Shown one piece after another: positions 1,912 through 17,219 of a stretch of DNA of 34,145 nucleotides. Positions within the stretch are counted from its first letter, which is position 1. Every line of letters begins with the position of its first letter. The DNA lies in assembly GCA_029262315.1 (NCBI GenBank), contig JAJCZP010000101.1:1-34145 (forward strand), given 5' to 3'. A program made the translations under genes and the position numbers. Below the pieces are notes generated by a model, which worked only from the letters and a program-made list of their open reading frames with translations, searched no databases and was not told where the DNA came from. Source of the DNA: Deltaproteobacteria bacterium (GTDB taxonomy: Bacteria; Desulfobacterota; Binatia; UTPRO1).

Positions 1912-4842
1912 TTAGCGCGGGCGCAGGACGGGCTCGCCATCGCGGTGTGGGCCGCACCAGATCAGGCGCAACGCATCGGGGCGCAGGCGGGCGTTCGCAA
2001 TGTGATCGGCGAGATCGGCGCGCTCGCGTTGGGCGGCGGCGATTTCGGCGGGGCGAATGTGCGCGTTGACCTTCGCAAGCGCGCGCAGTCTCCGGATCTC
2101 GCCGTCGAGCGATGTGGCCAGCAACGCGGCGGCTTCCGCGCGGAACGTTGCGGCCTGCGCCTCGGCGAGATCGGCGCATCGATCGCTCATGCCCGCGAGG
2201 AGGGGCGTCAGGGTTTCTCGTCGCGCGGCAAGCCACGGGCCTTGCCCCGCGACGAGCGCGCCGAGCGATGCCGCGGTGCGATCCGCGAGCGCTTGATCGA
2301 CAACGACGCGGACGGGCGTTGGCGGCAGAAAGCGGTCGATGTGCAAGCGTGGTGGGGCAACCGACTCGAGTACGAACACCGCCTCCAGCCACAGGCCCGG
2401 CGCGCCCTCCGCGTCCGTCAGCGCAAAGCTTCCGTTGCCGGACTCGGATGCGAGCAGCAGCTCCATGGCATCGTTCGGGAGGGGGTGATCGGTGGTGACG
2501 AACTTCAGATCCTCCCGGACCAGTGCCGTGTCGCGGGCGAAGGTGATGGCGGTCTCGCCCTGGCTGAGGGCGGGGAACTCCTCGCTTCGCACACCGTCGG
2601 GATTCAGGAGGTACGATCGCGGGCCGATCTCCTCCGCGTGGACATGGAAGTGATCGAGAACCTGGAGGAAGAGGTCCTCGGCCGTGAGATCGTGATCGCG
2701 CTGCGCAATCTCCTCGATCAGCGCCTGCGCGGCTTCGGGCCGGAGCGACGCCATCTCGAGCAGTCGGTCGCGACCCTGTTCGACCCGGGCGGCGAGCTCG
2801 CCGGCCGCGTGTGCCGTGTCGGCCACGAGCGTGTCCACGGCGGTCGCGTCGTGCGTGCCCCCATCGGCGACGAGGGTACGGACGCGACCGCCGAAGTGCT
2901 CGAGGAGTGGCCGCGCGGTGAGCGTTGGGCGCGCAAACGCATCGATGCCTTCGTGGTGCCAGCGGGCCAGCGTTTCCTGACCGGTGGCGCCGACGTACGG
3001 GATCTGGATGTGTACGGTGCCGCGCTGCCCGATGCGGTCGAGGCGTCCGATGCGCTGCTCGACCAGATCGGGATCGAGTGGCAGGTCGAACATGAGCAGG
3101 ACGTGCGCGTGTTGGAAGTTCCGACCCTCGCTGCCGATCTCCGAAGCGACGAGCAGACGGGCGCCGTGCGCGTCCGCGAACCACGCCGCGCTCCGGTCGC
3201 GCTGCAGGAGCGTCATCTTCTCGTGAAAGAGCGCGGTCTTCACGTTCATGCGGGCGTCGAGCGCCGTTTTGATCGCGACGGCCTTGGCGGCGCTCCGGCA
3301 CAAGACGAGGAGCTTCGCCGGTTCCGGTGCCGCCAGAATGCCGAGGAGATGCTCGATCCGCGGATCGTTCGCGAGATCGGGCTTCCGACTGCTCTTCGTC
3401 GTCGGGGCGTCGGCACCGGTCTCGAGTGGCTGTGGCTCCGGCTCCGGCTGGACGTCCGCCGCGACCTCGCGTGCCAGGCGCACGGCGCATTTCCGATCGG
3501 GGGGATCCAGCGCGAGGCGCTGCATCGCGACGCGCCGTTCGGGGAAGCTCGTCATGGCGGCTCGCGTATTGCGGAACATGACACGCCCTGGGCCGTGACG
3601 ATCGATGAGCTCGTCGAGCAGCTGCCGTGCGTCGGTTGACGCGAGTCTGCGCTTGGTCTCGGCTTGCGAGAGCTGGAGGGCCGCGGCGAGACGCGCGATC
3701 TCGTCGCGCCGCAGCGCTGCGACGGTGTCGCCGCCGGGCTCGAGTATCGCGATCAGCCGCTCGCCGAGTGCAACGATGTCCCGGTAGCCTTCGGCCTCAC
3801 TCTGCCAACGTTCGAAGTCATCGTAGCGATCCGGATCGAGCAGGCGCAGGCGGGCGAAGTGCCCCTCCTCCCCGAGACGTTCGGGCGTCGCGCTCAAGAG
3901 CAGCAATCCTGGCGCTCGCGCCGCGATGGCCTCCACAGCCTCGTATGCCGGGCTCGCGCTCGTGCGGGTCCACGACAAGTGATGCGCCTCATCGACGACG
4001 ACGATGTCCCAGCCCGCGGCGGCGGCTTCCTGGCCCCATGGGGCGGATGCCGTCACGAGTCCGAGCCCCGCCAGTACCAACTGCTCGCTCAGAAACGGGT
4101 TGGCCTCGGGCTCGTCCTCCGCGAGACCAGCGCAGCGCTCGGCGTCGAAGACGGCGAACGGCAAGTTGAAGCGCCGTCGGAGCTCGACGAGCCATTGATG
4201 CACGAGCGCGTCGGGCACGAGGATCAGGACGCGGGCCGCACGTCCCGCGAGCAGCAGTCGGTTTACGATCAGGCACGCCTCGATCGTCTTGCCGAGTCCG
4301 GTCTCGTCGGCCAGGAGGACGCGTGGGGCGTGACGCTGGGTGACTTCCGAGGCGATGTAAAACTGATGCGGGAGCAGCTCGAGGCGCGGGCCGACGAACC
4401 CACGGACGGGCGAACGGCGCGCGCGGTGGAGGTGGTGCAGCACGGCAAGCCGTAGGTCGAAGCGTGACGGGGCATCGACCCGTCCGGCGAGCAGGCGTTC
4501 GCGCGGCCCGCTGAGCGCGATCCGATCCGAAAGCTCCTCCTCGGACACCTCACGCGTACCGCACTGATACACGAGCAGGCCAGCGCGTTCCTCGACCGCT
4601 TCAACCCGGACGTCGGCACCATCGCTCGTGTGCAGTGCGTCGCCAGGGGCGAAACGTACCCGCCGCAGCGGGGCGGTTCGCACGGCGTAACGGCGGGTTT
4701 CGTCGGCACTGGCGAAGGTGAGGACGACGCTTCGTGCGTCTGTCTCGACGACGAGGCCGAGGCCCAGCTCCGGCTCGGCCTCGCTCATCCAACGCTGCCC
4801 AGGTCGCATCGGTCCCGTCGGATCTGACGTATCTGCACTCAC
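1912..4842 (-). CDS. rapA: RNA polymerase-associated helicase RapA/HepA
   Basis: This 976-residue protein aligns by eye over its whole length with Escherichia coli RapA (968 aa). The N-terminal [15 protein letters not shown] matches the Tudor-like region. It is followed by [19 protein letters not shown] with Walker A around 178-186, DEAHH at 284-288, SATPERLG, the helicase C-terminal block [11 protein letters not shown] and [20 protein letters not shown]-type spacer sequence and the terminal RPDALRLI. RapA is a SWI2/SNF2 translocase that binds RNA polymerase and promotes recycling after termination. The listed start is a GTG with AGGG nine bases upstream. An in-frame ATG at 4807-4809 (MRPGQRW) fits the E. 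coli N-terminus better and may be the true start. A TATAGG hexamer at 4853-4858 would place transcription only a few bases before the GTG, which also favours the internal ATG. The gene is divergent from fumarase with an 81-base spacer. Confidence 0.95.
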
Positions 4843-4923
4843 GAGCGCGCACCCTATACACCATTGCGGCGATCCTCGCGCATGGCGACTTTCGACCCGG
4901 TGCGATCTGGGTTAGGAAAACCC

Positions 4924-6537
<1,614 letters not shown>

Positions 6538-7289: not shown

Positions 7290-7361
7290 TCGTGTCTGAA
7301 GGTTCGCGTTCATGTGCAAGTCCATCTGACTGATCTCCTCGGGCGGGGATGTACGGTGGGT

Positions 7362-7390
7362 GGGGCAGCCGCCCCCATGGCGGCCGCCCC
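7362..7390 (-). terminator. GC-rich stem-loop between convergent genes
   Basis: The arms GGGGCAGCCGCC (7362-7373) and GGCGGCCGCCCC (7379-7390) pair over 12 positions with a five-base loop. Read on the minus strand the only irregular pair is a G-U wobble; on the plus strand it is an A-C mismatch, so the structure is stronger in minus-strand RNA. It lies between the stops of the genes ending at 7289 (+) and 7402 (-). No run of T follows on either strand, so intrinsic termination is doubtful; it could instead block RNA decay. The direct repeat GTACGGT flanks the stem at 7351-7357 and 7391-7397. Confidence 0.35.
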
Positions 7391-7401
7391 GTACGGTCCG
7401 G

Positions 7402-7668
7402 TCACCGCCCTCCGACCCGGCTGAGGTTCGCCGGGAAGCCAAGCGCGTCGTGGGGGTTGAAGGGGTGGTACGTTCTGGTGTCGTGTCCGACACCCGTCGC
7501 GGTCGTGCCGTGTTGCTGGGCCCCGTTGCGGAGCACGACCGCGGCGGGCGCGGATCCTCGCGCCGAGTGGGCCACGAGGGCCTCGGTGGCCGCGGCGGAA
7601 AACAGGAGCAGGCCAACGACGAGAAACGCAAAGAACCGGGTGAGGAAGTTCGTCGAGTGTCTGGACAT
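7402..7668 (-). CDS. Small exported protein of unknown function, 88 aa
   Basis: The ATG at 7666-7668 has a purine-rich AAAGGGG ribosome-binding site about eight bases upstream. The first 36 residues look like a Sec signal peptide: basic N-region MSRHSTNFLTR, hydrophobic core FFAFLVVGLLLFSAAA and a probable cleavage after an Ala-rich segment near VAHSA. The mature part is only about 50 residues, contains no Cys and is rich in Gly, His, Thr and Asn (QQHGTTATGVGHDTRTYHP). No family is recognised. The gene is divergent from the FHA protein at 7868. The 199-base intergenic region holds two tandem palindromes, which suggests a specifically regulated secreted peptide. Confidence 0.6.
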   Translation of the reverse strand: MSRHSTNFLTRFFAFLVVGLLLFSAAATEALVAHSARGSAPAAVVLRNGAQQHGTTATGVGHDTRTYHPFNPHDALGFPANLSRVGGR

Positions 7669-7727
7669 CGGTCAGCCCCTTTCTCCGCGCAGCCGGTCGA
7701 GTGCTTGCTGCGCTGCTACTAGTCAGG

Positions 7728-7766
7728 CGTTACAGAGCCTGTAACGGCGTTACGTCACGCGTAACG
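7728..7766. promoter_or_regulatory. Two tandem palindromes CGTTAC-N-GTAACG, candidate double operator
   Basis: Site 1 is CGTTACA-GAGCC-TGTAACG (7728-7746). Site 2 is CGTTACG-TCACG-CGTAACG (7748-7766). Both are perfect seven-base inverted repeats with five-base spacers. They share the half-site CGTTAC and their centres lie exactly 20 bases apart, about two helical turns. A further half-site GTTACG lies at 7814-7819, just before a TTGACA hexamer (7826-7831). The block lies in the 199-base spacer between the divergent genes at 7668 (-) and 7868 (+). This is the usual geometry for cooperative binding of two repressor or activator dimers. The identity of the binding protein is unknown. Confidence 0.6.
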
Positions 7767-7867
7767 GCATGTGGTTTGCGCAGGGCGATCGAAGAACGCC
7801 GCTTCTTCGCGTAGTTACGGATGCGTTGACATGAGGCGCCCGGCGGGGCTTTGTTCTCGGTCGAAGC

Positions 7868-8935
7868 ATGGGAGATGAGACGACACAGGTATTGCCGATC
7901 CGGCCGCGCGCGCCCGAGACGCGCCTGCGCCTGCGGTACAAACGCAAGCAGGCCATCATCGGTGACCAGGGGGGGGGCCGTCGGCAGGCGGTTCGGTTCG
8001 GGCGTGCCGAGGACAACGATCTGCAGATCGACGACTCGACCGTGTCGCGGCATCACGGGGAGATCGTCGCCAAGGACGACAAGTTCTATCTGAACGACGA
8101 CAGCAGCAACGGCACACTGATCGTGCGTGAGCGGTGGCGGAGTCTGTCGGTCCATCATCAGTCCGTGCTGCTCGAGGGCGAGGGGAGCCTATGCATCGGC
8201 CAGCCCGGGGGGCCGGAAATCCGGTTTGTCGTCGAGGTGCGCTCCGCCGACGGACGGAGCTGGGAGCCCGAGGGGGATGCCGATCCCGCTCCGGTACCGA
8301 CGTCCGAGGGCGCGAATGTCTTTCGCCAGGAAGGCGAGTACTGGACGCTGGCGTACGAGGGATCGGTATTGCGGATCCGCGACCTCAAGGGACTGCACTA
8401 CCTGGCGCATCTGCTCCGCCATCCCGGCGAGCCGTTCCATGCGCTGGATCTGGCGGTCGTTGGTACCGCAACCAACACGACGTCCCCGCCCGCATCCGAG
8501 TTGGCGCCGGGACCCGCGGCGCCAACGGCATGGGACGCCGCCGATGGCTTGCATCGCGATCAGGGGAGCGGCGCTGGTCCCGTCCTCGATGCCACGGCCA
8601 AGAGTGCCTATCGTCAACGCATTGCCGAACTCCGGGAGGAACTCGAGGAGGCCGAGGGCAACAACGACCTCGGGCGCGTCGATCGGGTGCAGGAGGAGCT
8701 GGAGTTTCTTGCCACGCAGCTCGCCGGCGCGATCGGCCTCGGTGGTCGCGATCGCGATACCGCGTCGAACGCCGAGCGGGCGCGCATCACCGTGACGGTG
8801 CGGATGAAGGAAGTCGTGAAGCGCCTGCGTCGCCACCATCCCGCGCTCGGCGATCACCTCGCGAGTCGGGTGAAGACCGGACGGATCTGCACGTACGTCG
8901 CCGACCCGTCACGCCCGGTGGACTGGGAATTCTGA
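7868..8935 (+). CDS. FHA-domain protein with C-terminal regulator-associated domain, 355 aa
   Basis: Residues about 20-125 form a forkhead-associated domain, which binds phosphothreonine peptides. The signatures are VRFGRAEDNDL (42-52), TVSRHHGEI (58-66) and SSNGTLIV (79-86). After an acidic/proline linker, residues about 155-200 (FRQEGEYWTLAYEG, LKGLHYLAHLLRHPG, FHALDL) and a charged helical segment ending near 300 form a second region. From memory, this resembles the C-terminal part of large bacterial AAA/TPR regulators and cyclase-like proteins. The end (RMKEVVKRLRRHHPALGDH) is basic and helical. No kinase, phosphatase or secretion genes accompany it here. The ATG at 7868 has only a weak ribosome-binding site. 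The stop is four bases from that of the convergent DUF937 gene. It is probably a cytoplasmic signalling adaptor; the FHA call is firm and the second domain less so. Confidence 0.85.
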   Translation: MGDETTQVLPIRPRAPETRLRLRYKRKQAIIGDQGGGRRQAVRFGRAEDNDLQIDDSTVSRHHGEIVAKDDKFYLNDDSSNGTLIVRERWRSLSVHHQSVLLEGEGSLCIGQPGGPEIRFVVEVRSADGRSWEPEGDADPAPVPTSEGANVFRQEGEYWTLAYEGSVLRIRDLKGLHYLAHLLRHPGEPFHALDLAVVGTATNTTSPPASELAPGPAAPTAWDAADGLHRDQGSGAGPVLDATAKSAYRQRIAELREELEEAEGNNDLGRVDRVQEELEFLATQLAGAIGLGGRDRDTASNAERARITVTVRMKEVVKRLRRHHPALGDHLASRVKTGRICTYVADPSRPVDWEF

Positions 8936-9556: not shown

Positions 9557-10885
9557 TCAGGGGGTGTCGATGAACGGTTGCAGGATTCGGCGCGAATCCA
9601 CGCAGGCGCGGAGTCGGGCACAGAGATGAAAGGTCCCCCCGAGCTTGCGGTGGACGAACAGCAATTCGGGCGCTGGAGGGCGGCGGAGTCCCCGACGGAA
9701 GGCCAGGTCGAAGCCGGCGGTGCCCGCACGGTCGGGGAGATTGCTCGCGCCGTAGTCGTAGATGCCCTCGGCCCGCAATGGTTCCGAGGCGAGTAGGATG
9801 AGATCGATCAGGCCGGCCGCGCGCTCGCCGACGTCGTCCTTGCCGAGCCATTTGAACTCGCGGGCGATCGTTTCTACTCGCGCGCGATCATCGTCGATGA
9901 TCGCCGCGAGCAGCCGTCCGTAACGTTCTGACGTTGGTCGTGCAATGCTGACGGTCGAGCCGAAGTCGAGCAGCACCAGTCGATGCTCGTCGGTGATGAA
10001 GAAGTTCGCGAAGTTCGGATCGGACTGCATGACCCCGAAGGAAAAGAGCTCGCGGGCCACCAATCGTTGCGCGAGGATGGCCAGCCGGTTGCGGACGGCT
10101 TGTGGCGAGTGCTGTTCCCACAGCGTGCTGATCGGTTTTCCGGGAACGAAATCCATGGCGAGAATGCGTGTCGTCGTCAGGTCGGCGTGGGGCGCCGGCA
10201 CCAGGACATCGGGCTCGTCTGCCAGCAGCGCGCGGAAGCGGGCGAGGCTGGCAGCCTCCGCGAGATAGTCGGTCTCGCGGCGGAGTTGGTCTTTCACGGC
10301 GCGGACGAACGGCGTGACGTCGAGATCCTCGGGGAGGATCCGCGCCATCTTGAGCAGCATGGCCAGATTGTCGACGTCGCTGCTGATGCTCTTGGCGACG
10401 CCCGGGAACTGAATCTTCAACGCCAGCTCGCGGCCGTCGGCCGCCACGACGCGGTGTACTTGGCCGATCGAGGCCGCGGCGACAGGCTCTTCGTCGAAGT
10501 GTTGGAAGCGAGCCTGCCAGCCGCGTCCGTACTCACGTCCGAGAATGCGATGGAGCTGCGCTGGGGTCATCGTATCGCCGCCGGCGCGGAGCATGCCGAG
10601 CGCGTCAGTGAACGCGGGTGGCAAGATGGCGCTCGCCTCCAGCGACAGCAGCTGTCCGAGTTTCATCGCGGCGCCGCGCATGCGGCCGAGATGCGCGACG
10701 AGTTGCTCGGCGGTGGCGTTGGAAGTCGCGAGATCGCCCAGTTCGGCTCGATCCCCGCTCAGCCAGCGGCGTGCGCCGTCGAACGCGACGTTTGCTGCGA
10801 TACCGCCGGCCATCGCGCCGAAGCGGAGGACGCGCTCGATGCGCCCTGCGGGGACGCGGGTGGCTGGCTTTCGGGGGGTCACCAT
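9557..10885 (-). CDS. AarF/ABC1 (UbiB-like) atypical kinase
   Basis: A 442-residue member of the ABC1/AarF/UbiB family of atypical kinases and ATPases. Visible motifs are the family-specific KxGQ (AAMKLGQLLS, K75), the Ala-rich nucleotide loop EPVAAASIGQVHR (133-145) in place of a Gly-rich loop, the lysine of LALKIQ (K157), QSDPNFANFF with catalytic-loop D289 and metal-binding N294, and LLDFGS (305-310). The start is the ATG at 10883-10885 with GGAG close upstream. A longer frame to 11068 would overlap the MerR gene and starts in unlike sequence. UbiB proteins support ubiquinone synthesis in other bacteria. Here the neighbour is a full menaquinone operon, with only a MerR gene and a shared 130-base promoter region between. 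The C-terminal hydrophobic helices typical of membrane-bound UbiB are not evident. A role in menaquinone synthesis or trafficking is inferred. Confidence 0.9.
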   Translation of the reverse strand: MVTPRKPATRVPAGRIERVLRFGAMAGGIAANVAFDGARRWLSGDRAELGDLATSNATAEQLVAHLGRMRGAAMKLGQLLSLEASAILPPAFTDALGMLRAGGDTMTPAQLHRILGREYGRGWQARFQHFDEEPVAAASIGQVHRVVAADGRELALKIQFPGVAKSISSDVDNLAMLLKMARILPEDLDVTPFVRAVKDQLRRETDYLAEAASLARFRALLADEPDVLVPAPHADLTTTRILAMDFVPGKPISTLWEQHSPQAVRNRLAILAQRLVARELFSFGVMQSDPNFANFFITDEHRLVLLDFGSTVSIARPTSERYGRLLAAIIDDDRARVETIAREFKWLGKDDVGERAAGLIDLILLASEPLRAEGIYDYGASNLPDRAGTAGFDLAFRRGLRRPPAPELLFVHRKLGGTFHLCARLRACVDSRRILQPFIDTP

Positions 10886-10990
10886 CGCTCTCCGGACATT
10901 TGTCGCATGCCTCGGGGGTCGACGCGAGTTTCTCGCCGTGGCGGGTCCCAGGTTCGGTGCGATCGGCTCGCGGGACCGGGTTGACGCTAC

Positions 10991-11009
10991 GAGTAAATAC
11001 TCTAAGAGT
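10991..11009. promoter_or_regulatory. Overlapping palindromes upstream of merR-men operon, candidate MerR operator
   Basis: GAGTA-AA-TACTC (10991-11002) and ACTCT-A-AGAGT (10999-11009) are two perfect inverted repeats sharing four bases. Together they give three alternating GAGT/ACTC half-sites directly upstream of the MerR ATG at 11016. A TTGACG hexamer (10981-10986) precedes them. MerR-type proteins normally bind between or over promoter elements and often control their own gene, so this is a reasonable operator for the encoded MerR protein. It would affect the men operon and possibly the divergent kinase. I could not fix a convincing -10 box. Confidence 0.5.
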
Positions 11010-11015
11010 GAGCGC

Positions 11016-11774
11016 ATGGAGTACGACGTTGGCTCGCTCGCCGAGGCCTCCGGCCTCTCCGTCGACACGATTCGATACTACCAAACGCTCGGGGTGCTCG
11101 AGGCTCCTCGTCGCCGGGGCCGCCACGCCGTCTACGACGATTCACATCGCGAGCGTCTGGCGCGCGTACGCGAGCTCTCGGAGCGCGGCTTCTCCCTGAA
11201 GTCCATGCGCGAGTTGCTCGCGCCGACCGATGGCGCCGAAGGGGATGAAGCGCTCCGCGCCGCACTCGAGCAAGGGCGTGCGGACCCTACGTACACACCG
11301 CGTGGCTTCGCGGCGGCGCTCGGCGTGCCGCTTTCGTTGTTGCGCGCGGTGGAGCGGACCGGCATTGCCGAGCCGCAACCGAGTGCGGGGGGCGAGGCGC
11401 GGTACACGGAGTCCGACCTGACGGCGGCGCGCGGAGCGCTCAAACTGCTCGAGCGCGGCATGCCGTTGACGCGGCTGCTCGAGCTCGCCGTGTCGCATCA
11501 TCGCGCGACGACACGCACGGTCGATCGCGCCGTCGATCTCTTCGACGACTACGTGCGGAAGGCCGCCACCACCGACGGCACCGAGGATCTCGACGCCGTC
11601 GCCGAGGTCTACCGCGATCTGATGCCAGTCGTGACGGGACTCGTGGCGCACCACTTCGAGCGCGTCCTCGTGACGCGCGCGCTGCAGCGTCTGGAGCGGA
11701 GTGGAGAGAAGCGCTCGTGGCGGCGCGCGTTGAAGGCGATCGCTCGTGCCCGGTTGAGGCTCAAGTGGAGGTAA
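11016..11774 (+). CDS. MerR-family transcriptional regulator with two MerR-type modules, 252 aa
   Basis: Residues 1-70 are a standard MerR winged helix: VGSLAEASGLSVDTIRYYQTLG, then APRRRGRHAVYDDSHRERL and an ELSERGFSLKSMREL helix. A second, diverged copy of the same fold occupies about 88-155 (YTPRGFAAALGVPLSLLRAV, ARYTESDLTAARGALKLLERGMPL). The C-terminal 95 residues are helical with no Cys or His cluster, so metal sensing is unlikely. The start at 11016 is set by homology; the ribosome-binding site (AAGAG) is weak and a longer frame upstream is not MerR-like. The stop overlaps the menG start by ten bases, so this regulator heads the menaquinone operon and is translationally coupled to it. 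Such coupling suggests control of quinone supply, possibly with a ligand bound in the C-terminal part; this is inference. Confidence 0.88.
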   Translation: MEYDVGSLAEASGLSVDTIRYYQTLGVLEAPRRRGRHAVYDDSHRERLARVRELSERGFSLKSMRELLAPTDGAEGDEALRAALEQGRADPTYTPRGFAAALGVPLSLLRAVERTGIAEPQPSAGGEARYTESDLTAARGALKLLERGMPLTRLLELAVSHHRATTRTVDRAVDLFDDYVRKAATTDGTEDLDAVAEVYRDLMPVVTGLVAHHFERVLVTRALQRLERSGEKRSWRRALKAIARARLRLKWR

Positions 11775-12469
11775 CCCTTCCAACGCAGGCCGAGAAGCGG
11801 CGGGTCGTGGAGGCGATGTTCGATCGGATCGCGCCGCGCTACGACCGCATGAACGCGCTGATCAGCTTCGGAGCGCACCGGCGCTGGAAACGCGCGGCCG
11901 TCGCCGGGTTGGCGGTGACCCCGGGGGCCGTGATCGTCGATCTTGCGTGTGGCACGGGTGACCTCTCCGAAGAGATCACACGCGTGGGCGGGCGCGCGCT
12001 CGGCGTGGACGTTTCGGCGGGGATGCTCCGCGAGGCCCGGCTCCGCACTCCCGCGATGGAGCTCGCGCGTGGCGACGGCGCGGCGCTGCCGTTCGGGTCC
12101 GACACGGTCGACGGTATCGCCTGCGGTTTTGCGCTCCGGAACTTCGTCCAGATCGGGCCGGTATTTCGGGAGATGGCGCGCGTCCTTCGACCCGGGGGGC
12201 GGATCGCACTCGTGGAGGTCGATCGCCCCGCCAACGCGCTGGTGCGGCGAGCGCACGGTCTCTACTTCGAGCGCTTCGTGCCGTGGCTCGGCGGGATGTT
12301 GAGCGATCGATGGGCGTATTCCTATCTGCCGTCGTCGGCCGCGTATCTGCCGGACGCGGTGACGATGCGAGCGCTCCTGGTGGATGCGGGCTTCGAGGGA
12401 ATCGTCAAGCGTCGGCTCATGGCCGGCGCGGCGCAACTGCTGACGGCGCGGAAGGGACCGGGGGGATGA
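11765..12469 (+). CDS. menG: Demethylmenaquinone methyltransferase (MenG/UbiE)
   Basis: A class I SAM-dependent methyltransferase, 234 aa from the GTG at 11765, which has GAGG five bases upstream (11756-11759). A GTG 48 bases earlier is also in frame but lies deep inside merR. UbiE signatures are present: EAMFDRIAPRYDRMNALIS near the N-terminus, motif I IVDLACGTGDLS, motif II GVDVSAGMLREAR, then ALPFGSDTVDGIACGFALRNF and VLRPGGRIALVEVDRP. It converts demethylmenaquinone to menaquinone, the last step of the pathway. Because the operon makes only menaquinone precursors, menG fits better than a ubiquinone role. It overlaps merR by ten bases and shares an ATGA with menF. Confidence 0.94.
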   Translation: MEVTLPTQAEKRRVVEAMFDRIAPRYDRMNALISFGAHRRWKRAAVAGLAVTPGAVIVDLACGTGDLSEEITRVGGRALGVDVSAGMLREARLRTPAMELARGDGAALPFGSDTVDGIACGFALRNFVQIGPVFREMARVLRPGGRIALVEVDRPANALVRRAHGLYFERFVPWLGGMLSDRWAYSYLPSSAAYLPDAVTMRALLVDAGFEGIVKRRLMAGAAQLLTARKGPGG

Positions 12470-13791
12470 TGACCCCGACGAGTCCGGGCGCGCTCGTTTG
12501 CGAGCGTAGCCTCCTGCCGCGCGACCTGCCGTCCGACCTGCTCGATTGCCTCCCCGATGGGTGTGCGACCTCTGTGTATTTCGCCCACCCTGCAAGTGAG
12601 ATCGAGATCGTGGGGGAGGGGGTCGCGGCGGAGATTCGTGCCGATGGCCCCGACCGGTTCGCGCACGCGGCGGCGTCGGCGCGGGCGCTATTCGGTGAGC
12701 TCGCGCTCAGCGGATCGGGGCCCGCACCGCTCCTCGTTGGCGGCTTCGGCTTTGCCGACGACCGACCGACCGATCCCCGATGGGAGGGCATGCCGGCGCT
12801 TCGCTTCGTGCTTCCCGAGCGGCTGTGGATTCGCACAGGCGGTGAGACGTGGTTGGTGCGGACGCGCGTGTCCGAGCCCGCCCGAGCCGACGAGTTTCGG
12901 GCGCCGCCGGGTGATGATGTCGCAGCAGGTCGAGCGCGCCGGCCGTTGGCGGGCTCGGGCGCGGCGTCGTCGGCGCGGGTGGCGTGGATCGATGGCGTGC
13001 GCGGGGCGATTGCCGCGATCGCCTCGGGACCGTTGCGGAAGATCGTGCTCGCCCGTTCATGCGAGTCCGCGACGACCGCCACGGCGCGAAGCACCGTACG
13101 CCGACTTCGCGATGGTCGCGCCGAATGTGTGAGCTTTTGGGTGCAGCATGGCGGTGCGAGCTTCGTTGGCTCGTCCCCCGAGGTGTTGGCGCGTGTCACC
13201 GACGGCGCCATCGAGGCGACGGCCCTTGCCGGTTCAGCGCCCCGCGGGCGCCGAGCCGCGAACGACGAGGCGCGGGCGCGGCAGCTCCTGGTCTGTCCGA
13301 AGAACCGGGGGGAGCACGCCTTCGTCGCCGACGACGTCCGTCGGGCGCTCGGGAGTGTGTGCGACGAGGTGGACGAGCGCCCGATCGAGGTTCGGAGTTA
13401 TCCGGAAGCATTTCATCTCGCGACGCCGTTTCGGGGTACCCTTCTCGCTGGCCTCGGTCTGCTCGATGCCGCGCGCGCGTTGCATCCGACGTCGGCTGTG
13501 TGTGGGGCCCCTCGCGAGGAGGCCAGGAGCATGATCGCCGCCGTGGAGCCCGAGCGTGGTTGGTACGCGGGTGGCGTCGGATGGATGGACGCGTCTGGTC
13601 AGGGAACCCTGGCGGTGGCGCTTCGTTGCGGGCTGTTCCGGCGGGGGGCGGTGACGCTCTGGGCGGGCGCCGGGATCGTCCACGATTCCGATCCGGCGAC
13701 CGAGTACGACGAGACCGAGATCAAGATGCAGGCCATGCGCCGGGCGCTCGCGGAGCCCGAACCGTCCGAGAACGCCGCGCATGCGGTCTGA
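12466..13791 (+). CDS. menF: Isochorismate synthase (MenF)
   Basis: A 441-residue chorismate-utilising enzyme that makes isochorismate, the first committed step of menaquinone synthesis. Family blocks: LRKIVLARS with the likely general base K192, SFVGSSPEVL with the likely general acid E239, ALAGSAPRG, CPKNRGEHAFV, HLATPFRGTLL, LHPTSAVCGAPR and the C-terminal VTLWAGAGIV followed by EYDETEIKMQAM, which supply Mg-binding glutamates. The E. coli TEALAGT block reads TALAGS here, as in EntC-like enzymes, so a salicylate or siderophore role would be possible on sequence alone. The men context makes MenF clearly preferable. The start is the ATG at 12466 in an ATGATGA overlap with menG, preceded by a G-rich tract. 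Confidence 0.94.
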   Translation: MMTPTSPGALVCERSLLPRDLPSDLLDCLPDGCATSVYFAHPASEIEIVGEGVAAEIRADGPDRFAHAAASARALFGELALSGSGPAPLLVGGFGFADDRPTDPRWEGMPALRFVLPERLWIRTGGETWLVRTRVSEPARADEFRAPPGDDVAAGRARRPLAGSGAASSARVAWIDGVRGAIAAIASGPLRKIVLARSCESATTATARSTVRRLRDGRAECVSFWVQHGGASFVGSSPEVLARVTDGAIEATALAGSAPRGRRAANDEARARQLLVCPKNRGEHAFVADDVRRALGSVCDEVDERPIEVRSYPEAFHLATPFRGTLLAGLGLLDAARALHPTSAVCGAPREEARSMIAAVEPERGWYAGGVGWMDASGQGTLAVALRCGLFRRGAVTLWAGAGIVHDSDPATEYDETEIKMQAMRRALAEPEPSENAAHAV

Positions 13792-15568
13792 CGACCGCTC
13801 GACGCCGGCGCTTGCCGCCGCCACCGCAATGGTCGAGGAGCTGGCGCGCGCCGGGGTGCGTCACGTGTGCATTGCCCCTGGCGCACGCTCCGGCCCCCTG
13901 ACGCTCGCGACGGCGCTGCATCCGACGCTTCGCGACTGGATGGTCGTCGACGAGCGGAGCGCCGGTTTCTTTGCCCTCGGGATGGCGCGTCAGCTCGGCG
14001 CGCCCGTCGCAGTGTTGTGTACCTCGGGGACGGCCGCGGCCAATCTGTTGCCGGCGGTCGTCGAAGCCTCGCTTTCTGAGGTGCCCTTGATCGTGCTCAC
14101 GGCGGATCGTCCACCGGAGCTTCGCGATTGCGCCGCGCCACAGACGATCGATCAGGTGCGGATATACGGATCGCATGTGCGGTGGGCGACCGATCTCCCG
14201 GCGCCGAGCGCCGACGTCGACCTGGACGCGTACTACCGGAGAATCGTGTGTCGCGCGGTGGCAACGGCAATGGAGTCCCGGCGTGGTCCCGTGCACGTCA
14301 ACGTCCCGTTTCGCGAGCCGCTGCTTCCCGAGGGCGGCATGCCGGTACGCGCATCGGAGGTGTCGGAGGTGCCGCCAGCGATGGTCGTGCCGTCCGCCGT
14401 GCCGCAGCTGGACGAACGCACCGCGCACGCGCTCGCGGCGGCGCTCGGCCGCGAGGAACGCGGGTTGGTGCTCTGCGGGCCGCGCGCCGGCCTCGAGGGG
14501 CAGGGCGCGCTCGTGCGAGACTTGGCAGCGCGGCTTGGCTGGCCGATTCTCGCCGATCCCTTGTCCGGTGTCCGATTCGGCGGATGCGATGCGGTACCCC
14601 AGATCGATACCTACGACGTTCTGCTCCGCGATCGGCGCTTTTGCGACGAGCACGTGCCACGCGCGGTCCTGCAGCTCGGCGCGCCACCGGTGTCGAAGGC
14701 GCTCGGCCAATACCTCGCGGCGCATTCGTTGTCCGCGCACGTGGTCGTTGCCTCGCCGGGCACCTGGCCCGATCCGACGCACGCCGCGACCACGCTCGTG
14801 CACGCGGAAGGGGTGGCGACGGTCCGAGCGTTGTGTGCGGGGCTGCCGCCTTCCGTGATGGAGACGGAGTGGGCGCACGCCTGGCAGAACGCCGGCCACC
14901 ATGCCCGGACGGTTCTCGACGAGCGGTTGGCAGCCGAGTCGACGCTGTTCGAAGGGAAGATCGCCGCCGAGGTCGTGGCGCGCCTTCCGGCGGACGCCGT
15001 GCTTCATGTGGGAAACAGCATGCCGGTGCGTGATCTCGACATGTTCGGACGCGCCCGCCCGGCAGAGCTCCGCGTCGATGGCAATCGTGGGGCGAACGGA
15101 ATTGATGGCGTGCTCTCGAGCGCCCTCGGAGCCGCCGCGGTGAGCGGTCGTCCGACGCTTCTCGTCGTCGGTGATCTCAGCTTCTTGCACGACCTCGGGG
15201 GACTACAGATCGCCGCACGCCATGCGCTGAACGCGGTCGTCATCGTCGTCAACAACGATGGCGGGGGTGTGTTCTCGTTCTTACCGTTCGCCGACGACAG
15301 CGATGTCTTCGAGCGCTGCTTTGCGACGCCGCACGGGCTCGATCTCGCGTCTGCGGTGACGCTCGGTCGCGGGCGTCATCACCGTGTGCGCGATTGGCGG
15401 TCGTTCGGCGAGGTCGTTGACGGCGCCCTCGTCACGCCCGGGTTGGACGTCATCGAAGTGCCGTCGGACCGCGACGTGAATGCTCGTCTGCATCGAGAGT
15501 ATGTCGCGGCGGTCCATGCCGGTCTCCCCGGTCTCAATGGGGTGCCCACGCGGAGCGACGTCGCGTGA
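13781..15568 (+). CDS. menD: SEPHCHC synthase (MenD), ThDP-dependent
   Basis: A 595-residue thiamine diphosphate enzyme of normal MenD length. It adds the succinyl semialdehyde unit of 2-oxoglutarate to isochorismate. Signatures: [14 protein letters not shown] (the family's SPGSRS block, here APGARS), [12 protein letters not shown] with the cofactor-activating E58, [14 protein letters not shown], and [15 protein letters not shown]. The ThDP/Mg site [17 protein letters not shown] is followed by [13 protein letters not shown]. The substrate-contacting [12 protein letters not shown] and [10 protein letters not shown] are also present. It overlaps menF by 11 bases and shares GTGA with menH. No disrupted motif is seen and the assignment is firm. 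Confidence 0.96.
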
Positions 15569-16419
15569 ACCGGGAGGTGGTCGTACCCGATGGCGTGGTG
15601 GCCGTTGCCGATCACGCTCCATCTATCGAGGAGCGCGCGCCGGTGCTCTTGCTGCACGGATTCACGGGCGACAAGACCAGCTTCGATGGGCAGGACGGGT
15701 TGGTTGCGGTCTTGGGGCGAACGCGACGGGTGCTCGTGCCCGATCTGCCGGGGCACGGGACGACCGCGATCGCGGGCGCTCCGTGTACCCTCGCCCGGAC
15801 GGCGGATCTCCTGCGGAGCATGCTCGAGACGCAGGGTGTCGCGCGCGCCACCGTCGTTGGCTATTCGATGGGCGGTCGATTGGCACTCCAGCTGGCCTTG
15901 CGTTCGGCCGCGGTCGTCGAGCGCTTGGCGCTCGTCAGTGCATCGGCCGGCCTGCCGAGCGAGGACGAACGATCTGCGCGTCGGCAACAAGACGAAGAAC
16001 TCGCCCGATTCATCGAAGACCATTCGATCGAGGAGTTCGTTGCTCGCTGGGAGGCGCTCCCGCTGTTTGCCACCGAGCGCGTGTTGAGCAGCGAGGTGCG
16101 GGCGGCGCGCCGGCGGCAGCGACTGCGGTCGCGGCCGTCGGGTCTCGCGGCGAGTTTGCGTGCGATGGGTACCGGGGCGCAGGCCTGGCTCGGACCCAGG
16201 CTCGGAGAGCTTTCGATGCCGGTGCTCGTCGTGGCCGGGATGCTCGATCAAAAATTCGCGGCGATTGCGCGCGGGCTGGCACCAGGCGTGCGGGGCGGTG
16301 CGCTCGCGCTCGTGGACGGCGCGGGCCATGCGGTACATCTCGAGCAGCCAGCGTCGGTGGCGGCGTTGCTGCGGGAGTTTCTCGACGGAAAGGAAGAGCC
16401 ATGTCGATCGAATGGGTGA
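15565..16419 (+). CDS. menH: SHCHC synthase (MenH), alpha/beta hydrolase fold
   Basis: A 284-residue alpha/beta hydrolase starting at the GTG of the GTGA overlap with menD. The oxyanion segment [13 protein letters not shown], nucleophile elbow GYSMGGR (S101), acid in AGMLDQKF (D228) and base in [12 protein letters not shown] (H255) give a complete triad. MenH eliminates pyruvate from SEPHCHC to form SHCHC. The cap region has the Arg-rich helices ([10 protein letters not shown]) typical of the family. Many alpha/beta hydrolases look alike, but the position between menD and menB decides the call. The last 19 bases overlap menB. Confidence 0.93.
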
Positions 16420-17219
16420 CGGCGAAGGAGTACGAGGACATCCTCTACGGCAGGGCCGATGGCATCGCCAGGATCGCGATCAATCGTCCCGAAGTGCGAA
16501 ACGCTTTTCGGCCGCAGACCATCATGGAGTTGCTCGACGCGTTCGCGCATGCCCGCGAAGATCCCTCCACCGGCGTGGTGATTCTCACCGGGGTTGGCGA
16601 CAAGGCGTTCTGCAGCGGCGGTGATCAGCGTGTCCGCGGCGACAAGGGCTACGTCGGTGGTGATGGGGTGCCGCGACTGAACGTGCTCGATCTGCAGAAG
16701 TTGATTCGTTCGATGGCGAAGCCGGTCATCGCCATGGTCGCGGGCTACGCGATCGGTGGCGGGCACGTCCTGCATGTAGTGTGCGATCTCACGATCGCCG
16801 CCGAGAACGCCGTCTTTGGGCAGACCGGCCCGAAGGTGGGGAGTTTCGACGGCGGCTTCGGCGCGTCCTATCTGGCGCGGATGATTGGGCCGAAGCGGGC
16901 CAAGGAGATTTGGTTTCTCTGCGAGCAGTACACGGCGACCGAAGCGTACGACATGGGCATGGTCAACAAGGTCGTGCCACTCGCCGACCTCGAGGCAACG
17001 ACCGTCGATTGGTGCCGGAAGATTTTGCGGCAGAGCCCACTGGCGATTCGCTGCCTGAAGTCCGCCTTCAACGCCGAGACCGATGGCATGGCGGGGTTGC
17101 AGGAACTGGCCGGCAACGCCACGTTGCTGTTCTACATGACCGAAGAAGGGCAGGAGGGGCGCAACGCCTATCTCGAGAAGCGTCCCCCCGACTTTACGAA
17201 GTTCGGCCGCGTGCCGTGA
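16401..17219 (+). CDS. menB: 1,4-dihydroxy-2-naphthoyl-CoA synthase (MenB)
   Basis: A crotonase-family protein of 272 aa that cyclises o-succinylbenzoyl-CoA to DHNA-CoA. The match to E. coli MenB is strong: [33 protein letters not shown] (oxyanion hole), [20 protein letters not shown] with the catalytic D150, and [20 protein letters not shown]. The Gly of QTGPK (G143) marks the bicarbonate-dependent type known from E. coli. The ATG at 16401 follows AAGGAAGAG closely; the same frame extends much further upstream but only as a shadow of menH. It overlaps menH by 19 bases and shares GTGA with menA. Confidence 0.97.

Follow-up and report, generated by a model that had tools for sequence, protein, structure and literature searches.

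A polar array of four GTNAC half-sites beside an FHA protein gene is a candidate operator for a small regulon of exported-looking proteins

What purpose might be served by two perfect inverted repeats that lie side by side between a gene for a small, exported-looking protein and a divergent gene for a protein carrying an FHA domain, and which protein would read them? The locus lies in a stretch of 34,145 nucleotides (hereafter the window), which is contig C101 of a 5.92-Mb genome in 298 contigs. Our preferred answer, to which we assign a probability of roughly two in three, is that the tandem dyad serves as an operator for the FHA protein encoded beside it, which would bind there and govern a small regulon. 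The features that define the locus are as follows:

7402-7668, minus strand: gene for an 88-aa exported-looking protein (P0002), the likely controlled gene, whose ATG is 60 bp from the array
7728-7746, no strand: first perfect dyad, CGTTACA-GAGCC-TGTAACG, with 7-bp arms and a 5-base spacer
7748-7766, no strand: second perfect dyad, CGTTACG-TCACG-CGTAACG, with 7-bp arms and a 5-base spacer
7814-7819, plus strand: lone GTTACG half-site of doubtful role
7826-7831, plus strand: TTGACA hexamer, a possible -35 element of the FHA gene, for which no -10 partner was found
7868-8935, plus strand: gene for a 355-aa FHA protein (P0001), the proposed binder of the array (PF00498, E 3.4e-13, residues 42-100)

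Upstream of the locus are genes for a RapA-type RNA polymerase recycling helicase (1912-4842, minus strand) and a fumarase (4864-6537, plus strand). Elsewhere in the window (12283-17219, plus strand) is a run of genes for chorismate-binding, TPP-enzyme and enoyl-CoA hydratase proteins that looks like menaquinone synthesis (MenF, MenD and MenB, the names being inferred).

The first-pass annotation had described two perfect dyads with identical five-base spacers, and we find them exactly so, each 19 bp long and centred on 7737 and 7757, that is, 20 bp apart. Its judgement that such a matched pair would hardly arise by chance is borne out by shuffling, given that CGTTAC-N4..8-GTAACG matches twice in the window and not once in 100 dinucleotide shuffles. 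Scattering of the motif, which the annotation had named as evidence against an operator, was looked for and not seen, there being three exact places in 5.9 Mb. CGTTAC-N7-GTAACG occurs at three places in the genome, two in the window and one at C173:6594, as against none for the reversed control. At C173:6574 a partner dyad with one mismatch stands in the same 20-bp register and completes a second full tandem. With up to three mismatches allowed, the tandem was found at these two places in its own genome (the window and C173:6574-6612) and in none of the 57 other relatives. The single dyad, by comparison, is no commoner than its reversed control in the 58 genomes, and in the window's own genome it gives 179 matches with up to two mismatches vs 229 control matches. 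Thus only the tandem is special, and the strict CGTTAC dyad was rejected as the unit.

The lone GTTACG does lie before TTGACA, where it had been placed as a third half-site, but we give it no weight in that role, because finding a single GTNAC within 50 bp is nothing unusual and because its distance from the tandem is not conserved (about 38 bp at C173 vs 48 bp in the window). No sigma-70-type promoter was found in 7290-7900. A literature search for a CGTTAC/GTAACG operator or palindrome did not bring this operator to light. Just upstream of the second tandem is a pair of genes that by eye resembles a VapBC toxin-antitoxin system (G000:C173; L004:5717-6381).

Judged from sequence comparison, the unit is a polar array, GTNAC-N7-GTNAC-N3/4-GTNAC-N7-GTNAC, usually followed by GCCT and, in the window, pointing at the exported-protein gene:

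7725-7765, minus strand: array GTTAC-N7-GTAAC-N3-GTTAC-N7-GTAAC followed by GCCT, read towards the exported-protein gene, with 0 mismatches to GTNACN7GTNACN3GTNACN7GTNACNCCT

The same side of both the C101 and C173 tandems carries GCCTnACT. A further array in the same genome, on contig C19 (GTCAC-N7-GTGAC-N3-GTCAC-N7-GTTAC), lies 39 bp after the stop codon of a paralogous FHA protein gene, whose product is 59% identical to the window protein in its C-terminal module. In the relative G030, another array lies 79 bp after the stop codon of a gene for the same module. The C19 and G030 arrays came into view through a scan of fetched homologue loci that fixed only the geometry and accepted any half-site, and an array with N4 between its pairs was seen on contig G009:C102 by reading the sequence after a homologue. 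When four GT.AC half-sites with free spacing were sought in 60 homologue loci together with the window and the C173 stretch, 62 loci in all, the six occurrences were spaced only 7-3-7 or 7-4-7, and the same loci contained no instance of seven other comparable quasi-palindromes.

Across the 58 genomes scanned, the exact N3 array occurs at three places (C19, C101 and C173), all in the window's own genome; it was found in 0 of the 57 relatives and 0 of 394 other genomes drawn from the phylum. The whole-genome scan placed the N4 array at three sites only, all on G009:C102, where the three arrays are near-identical. The arrays on C19 and C101 and two of the three on C102 lie within 370 bp of a module gene, and the third C102 array is about 4.5 kb from one on the same contig. 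On the reverse strand of that locus (L095, 4256-4600), a gene for a 68-aa protein with its own GTNAC array is followed by an array preceding a 705-aa frame. Allowing up to two mismatches while demanding NCCT adds C235 (own genome) and G030, with control matches as frequent (3 in 58 genomes), so that these two arrays are identified by position only. In total, the looser N3 search yielded five distinct places vs the 3 control matches, and the looser N4 search returned the three known G009 places and one chance-level match in G042 vs control matches in three genomes.

The GTNAC form was generalised from loci picked for carrying the module, which makes the whole-genome association of arrays with module genes partly circular. 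A search with the window's own GTTAC tandem pattern is not. This pattern, GTTAC-N7-GTAAC-N3-GTTAC-N7-GTAAC, was sought in 84,980 species genomes and recovered 8 stretches on 7 contigs. On two of the seven, the tandem lies just after a gene whose product has a homologous C-terminus: in a deltaproteobacterial MAG (L042; module E 1e-29) the stop codon is 176 bp before the tandem, and in a Phycisphaerae MAG (L047; module E 1e-14) it is 1 bp before. A linkage of 2 in 7 corresponds to p ~1e-4, on a rough base rate from the relatives and assumed gene counts. The other five contigs, among them an archaeal MAG (L043) and an Alcaligenaceae contig (L044), gave no significant module match in the stretches scanned (L043, L044, L045, L046/L048 and L049), and neither did four viral contigs. 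The annotation's statement that no regulator adjoins and that the binder acts in trans is therefore probably wrong, since the FHA protein starts 102 bp from the dyads and relatives of its C-terminal module adjoin arrays elsewhere.

Several of these loci show additional features. A further GTAACGCCT...GTTAC pair is found a short way upstream of the L042 tandem (L042:7208-7267). About 50 bp after the L047 tandem, a hairpin that looks by eye like a terminator is followed by eight T (L047:5658-5790), so this tandem may direct synthesis of a short RNA or form part of the 3' end of the gene. In an Aminicenantes MAG, the tandem (L045:2302-2338) is about 270 bp before a gene for an exported-looking 246-aa protein, with no module match in the 8 kb scanned.

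Most module genes have no array nearby, and the module thus need not always read GTNAC. Among the 60 stretches fetched around module matches, arrays occur at only a few; none has the exact GTTAC-N7-GTAAC, and no GTNAC array was found at three Streptomyces/Nonomuraea plasmid loci. The array-linked members do not cluster in a tree of the family (5 changes, with 182 of 500 shuffles as low), in which most forks are poorly resolved.

The FHA domain of P0001 scores well above its gathering threshold (PF00498, 50.2 bits; cut-off 20.7), and that of the paralogue scores 38.6 bits. The C-terminal part of the protein is shared with array-linked genes elsewhere:

8300-8932, plus strand: C-terminal output module of P0001, residues 145-355, of a family common to array-linked genes elsewhere

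This module has no convincing match in Pfam, NCBIfam or PDB sequences. Trans_reg_C of Pfam matched none of P0001, P0004, P0005 or their modules, and was absent from the 25 families listed for 30 family members and from ten longer fusions. Nevertheless, the module, about 200 C-terminal residues, is present in 27 of the 58 genomes examined (E up to 0.001), and was seen in this class, in a deltaproteobacterial MAG, in a planctomycete MAG and in Streptomyces, Embleya and Nonomuraea replicons. Plasmids contributed four records, phages gave no match, and none was confirmed in viral contigs among 115 pattern stretches. In ten relatives scanned, the module lies behind FHA, receiver, receiver plus cyclase, hydrolase and AAA_16/TPR domains (one with GerE), and this placement behind varied signalling domains is the behaviour of an output domain. 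Two of the module-bearing proteins are FHA fusions, and one relative has the module in front of AAA_16. Among the papers listed by a literature search on an FHA/winged-helix or coiled-coil-split OmpR-like family there was nothing on the module, which does not in itself prove it unpublished.

AlphaFold models of the modules from the window and L042 (P0006 and P0007) agree in architecture, with strands, two short helices, a disordered loop, a coiled-coil hairpin, a long helix and a hairpin in that order, although confidence is modest (pLDDT 69.7 and 69.2, each model from only three sequences). The best structural matches of the two models, to OmpR/PhoB-type domains, have Z 8.3, rmsd 2.9 and 92 aligned residues, and Z 8.0, rmsd 2.7 and 87 aligned residues, respectively, a Z of about 8 being a level that the comparison tool rates as common. 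Sorted by title, 43 of 50 and 39 of 50 of the matches listed are OmpR/PhoB/ToxR-type DNA-binding domains, and the remainder are coiled coils or other helical proteins. Foldseek E-values are weak (best 0.23, an OmpR domain), and hhalign comparison with four E. coli OmpR-type domains gave no clear match, the probability being 1.2% (E 0.043) for the whole module alignment and 4.4% (E 0.0092) for its N-terminal block alone. As modelled, the module would resemble an OmpR/PhoB winged helix split by a coiled-coil hairpin before the recognition helix. That no other fold leads the structure lists does not make the fold a new one. Given that GlnR and MtrA, members of the OmpR family, read GTnAC, the predicted fold and the half-site agree independently.

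We consider the odds to be even that this widespread, unannotated module is a new output domain that binds DNA, built as an OmpR-like winged helix interrupted by a coiled-coil hairpin for dimerisation, with the GTNAC array as its first identified operator. If so, many proteins at present annotated as ‘AAA family ATPase’ or ‘hypothetical’ would be transcription factors, and a function, a target sequence and a direct means of assay would be available for a module that has no name in any library used here. One common output would link signalling proteins of the FHA, receiver and ATPase types to gene control, and it would become apparent how small secreted proteins of this bacterial group are switched. 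The operator itself is ordinary in kind; it is its probable reader that goes unrecognised in the libraries used.

The genes that follow the arrays fit the annotation's expectation of an operator with a small regulon, the unit being the polar array of four GTNAC half-sites and not the strict dyad it had proposed. At each of four sites in the genome, three exact arrays and one with mismatches, an ATG follows at 60-65 bp and opens a frame for a protein that by eye looks exported: 60 bp on C101 (88 aa), 65 bp on C173 (814 aa), 65 bp on C19 (352 aa) and 62 bp on C235 (83 aa). P0002 has an N-terminus that is hydrophobic by eye, no Pfam match and a nearest other match in its own genome at E = 0.01. 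Of the three G009 arrays, one lies 37 bp ahead of a 68-aa protein, one 42 bp ahead of a 705-aa frame and one 154 bp ahead of a 115-aa exported-looking protein. An exported-looking protein also comes after the G030 array; the L047 array is followed by a 212-aa frame in which no signal peptide is evident, and the L042 array by no clear gene. An exported-looking product thus follows 6 of 10 arrays, including all four in the genome of the window. Pfam gave no match for eight controlled proteins, three of which were represented by N-terminal parts only. As a rule the regulator gene comes first, then the array and then the target (C19, G009, G030, L042 and L047), unlike the window, where the FHA and exported-protein genes are divergent. 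Since two of the G009 start codons are very close to their arrays, the promoter would have to abut or overlap the array there, as SARP-type promoters do with their repeats (PMC10936776).

The most durable of the competing explanations, which we nonetheless consider unlikely, is that an ordinary OmpR-family response regulator encoded elsewhere, similar to MtrA or GlnR, binds the array, the FHA protein being only a neighbour or co-target. Contigs C173 and C235 carry an array but no module gene, which would suit such a regulator. OmpR-type regulators are common in bacteria, and the absence of the N3 array from all 57 relatives therefore counts against an ordinary member of that family. Arrays also recur beside module genes in other genomes. 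GlnR and MtrA are known for GTnAC half-sites (PMC10704036, PMC13189361), but the published boxes are direct repeats, GTnAC-n6-GTnAC and GTnAcC-n5-GTnAcn, and this n5/6 spacing appears in none of the arrays counted here, all of which are 7-3-7 or 7-4-7.

It is less probable still that the dyads are a plain operator for another helix-turn-helix regulator, nearby or unlinked. Dyads of 19 bp are typical of many regulators, a gene that by eye is IclR-like adjoins the GTTAC tandem at L044, and a MerR-family gene lies about 3 kb from the dyads (10545-11774, plus strand; MerR_1 E 6.9e-24, from residue 160 of the frame). However, both the FHA gene and an ABC1-kinase gene lie between the MerR gene and the dyads, and in the array neighbourhoods examined (C19, G009, G030, L042 and L047) the module gene is the only regulator seen repeatedly.

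A role for the dyads as RNA or DNA hairpins, in an attenuator, terminator or processing site, appears quite improbable, even though the window has perfect 7-bp stems with 5-nt loops and the hairpin after the L047 array has already been mentioned. No terminator was found in 7290-7900. At C173 the innermost facing positions are not Watson-Crick pairs (A-C and G-T), while the base after CGTTAC (or GGTTAC) is a purine in all eight half-sites of the C101 and C173 tandems, a combination that, from the sequences, would suit protein half-sites better than hairpins. Furthermore, the second half-site pair of the C19, C235 and three G009 arrays is non-complementary at its centre (GTCAC/GTTAC or GTGAC/GTTAC), so that what is kept is half-site identity and not pairing.

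Least credible of all is a mobile or repeat element of which the arrays would be copies: dispersed hairpins of a different repeat family (GTGCCGGTGTTACGGTTTCGGTAAC, several copies, with GTTACGG) do match the pattern on the gammaproteobacterial contig JADZBS010000004.1 (L046 and L048), but a 231-bp stretch of the window has no second copy in its genome (next best E 1.19) and the C101 and C173 flanks have little in common apart from the array, GCCTnACT and the region of the start codon.

Under our preferred reading, with the FHA protein as the regulator, P0001 would act in the style of a one-component transcription factor, its N-terminal FHA domain reading a phosphothreonine signal and its C-terminal module binding GTNAC half-sites. 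Two dimers, paired through their coiled coils, might occupy the four half-sites on the same face of the helix with centres 20 bp apart, roughly covering the -35 region and adjoining the GCCTnnCT stretch. Binding would activate, or less likely repress, the divergent gene that encodes the 88-aa exported protein, and two or three other genes would come under the same control. The FHA protein may also act in trans on the exported-protein genes of C173 and C235, and the C19 paralogue could do likewise for the exported protein encoded after its own array. The input might be a phosphothreonine partner, to which the protein would respond as EmbR does.

Operators with two dyads about two helical turns apart, occupied by two dimers, are familiar from restriction-modification C-proteins and phage repressors. 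The present array differs from these in sequence, regulator type and gene context, and no methylase, endonuclease or phage gene was found among ten window frames scanned. The GlnR and MtrA boxes of Actinomycetes are alike in having GTnAC half-sites, read there by an OmpR-type regulator and here, by prediction, by an OmpR-like module, and unlike in that they are n6 and n5 direct repeats, whereas here there are four half-sites, with N7 within and N3/N4 between pairs, and GCCT. With regard to the EmbR/SARP regulators, P0001 has no BTAD match and does not follow their order of an N-terminal OmpR-type domain, BTAD and a C-terminal FHA domain; its FHA domain is N-terminal, its putative DNA-binding unit C-terminal and, by prediction, split by a coiled coil, and the GTNAC half-sites are set at 12-8-12 steps in place of 11- or 22-bp direct repeats. 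Nevertheless, both systems join an FHA domain to a DNA-binding unit that is OmpR-like, here by prediction (PMC10936776, PMC4601284), both have ATPase/TPR relatives (AfsR there, AAA_16 plus TPR here), the repeats abut the promoter there and would do so here, and EmbR responds to a phosphothreonine partner (PMC4601284).
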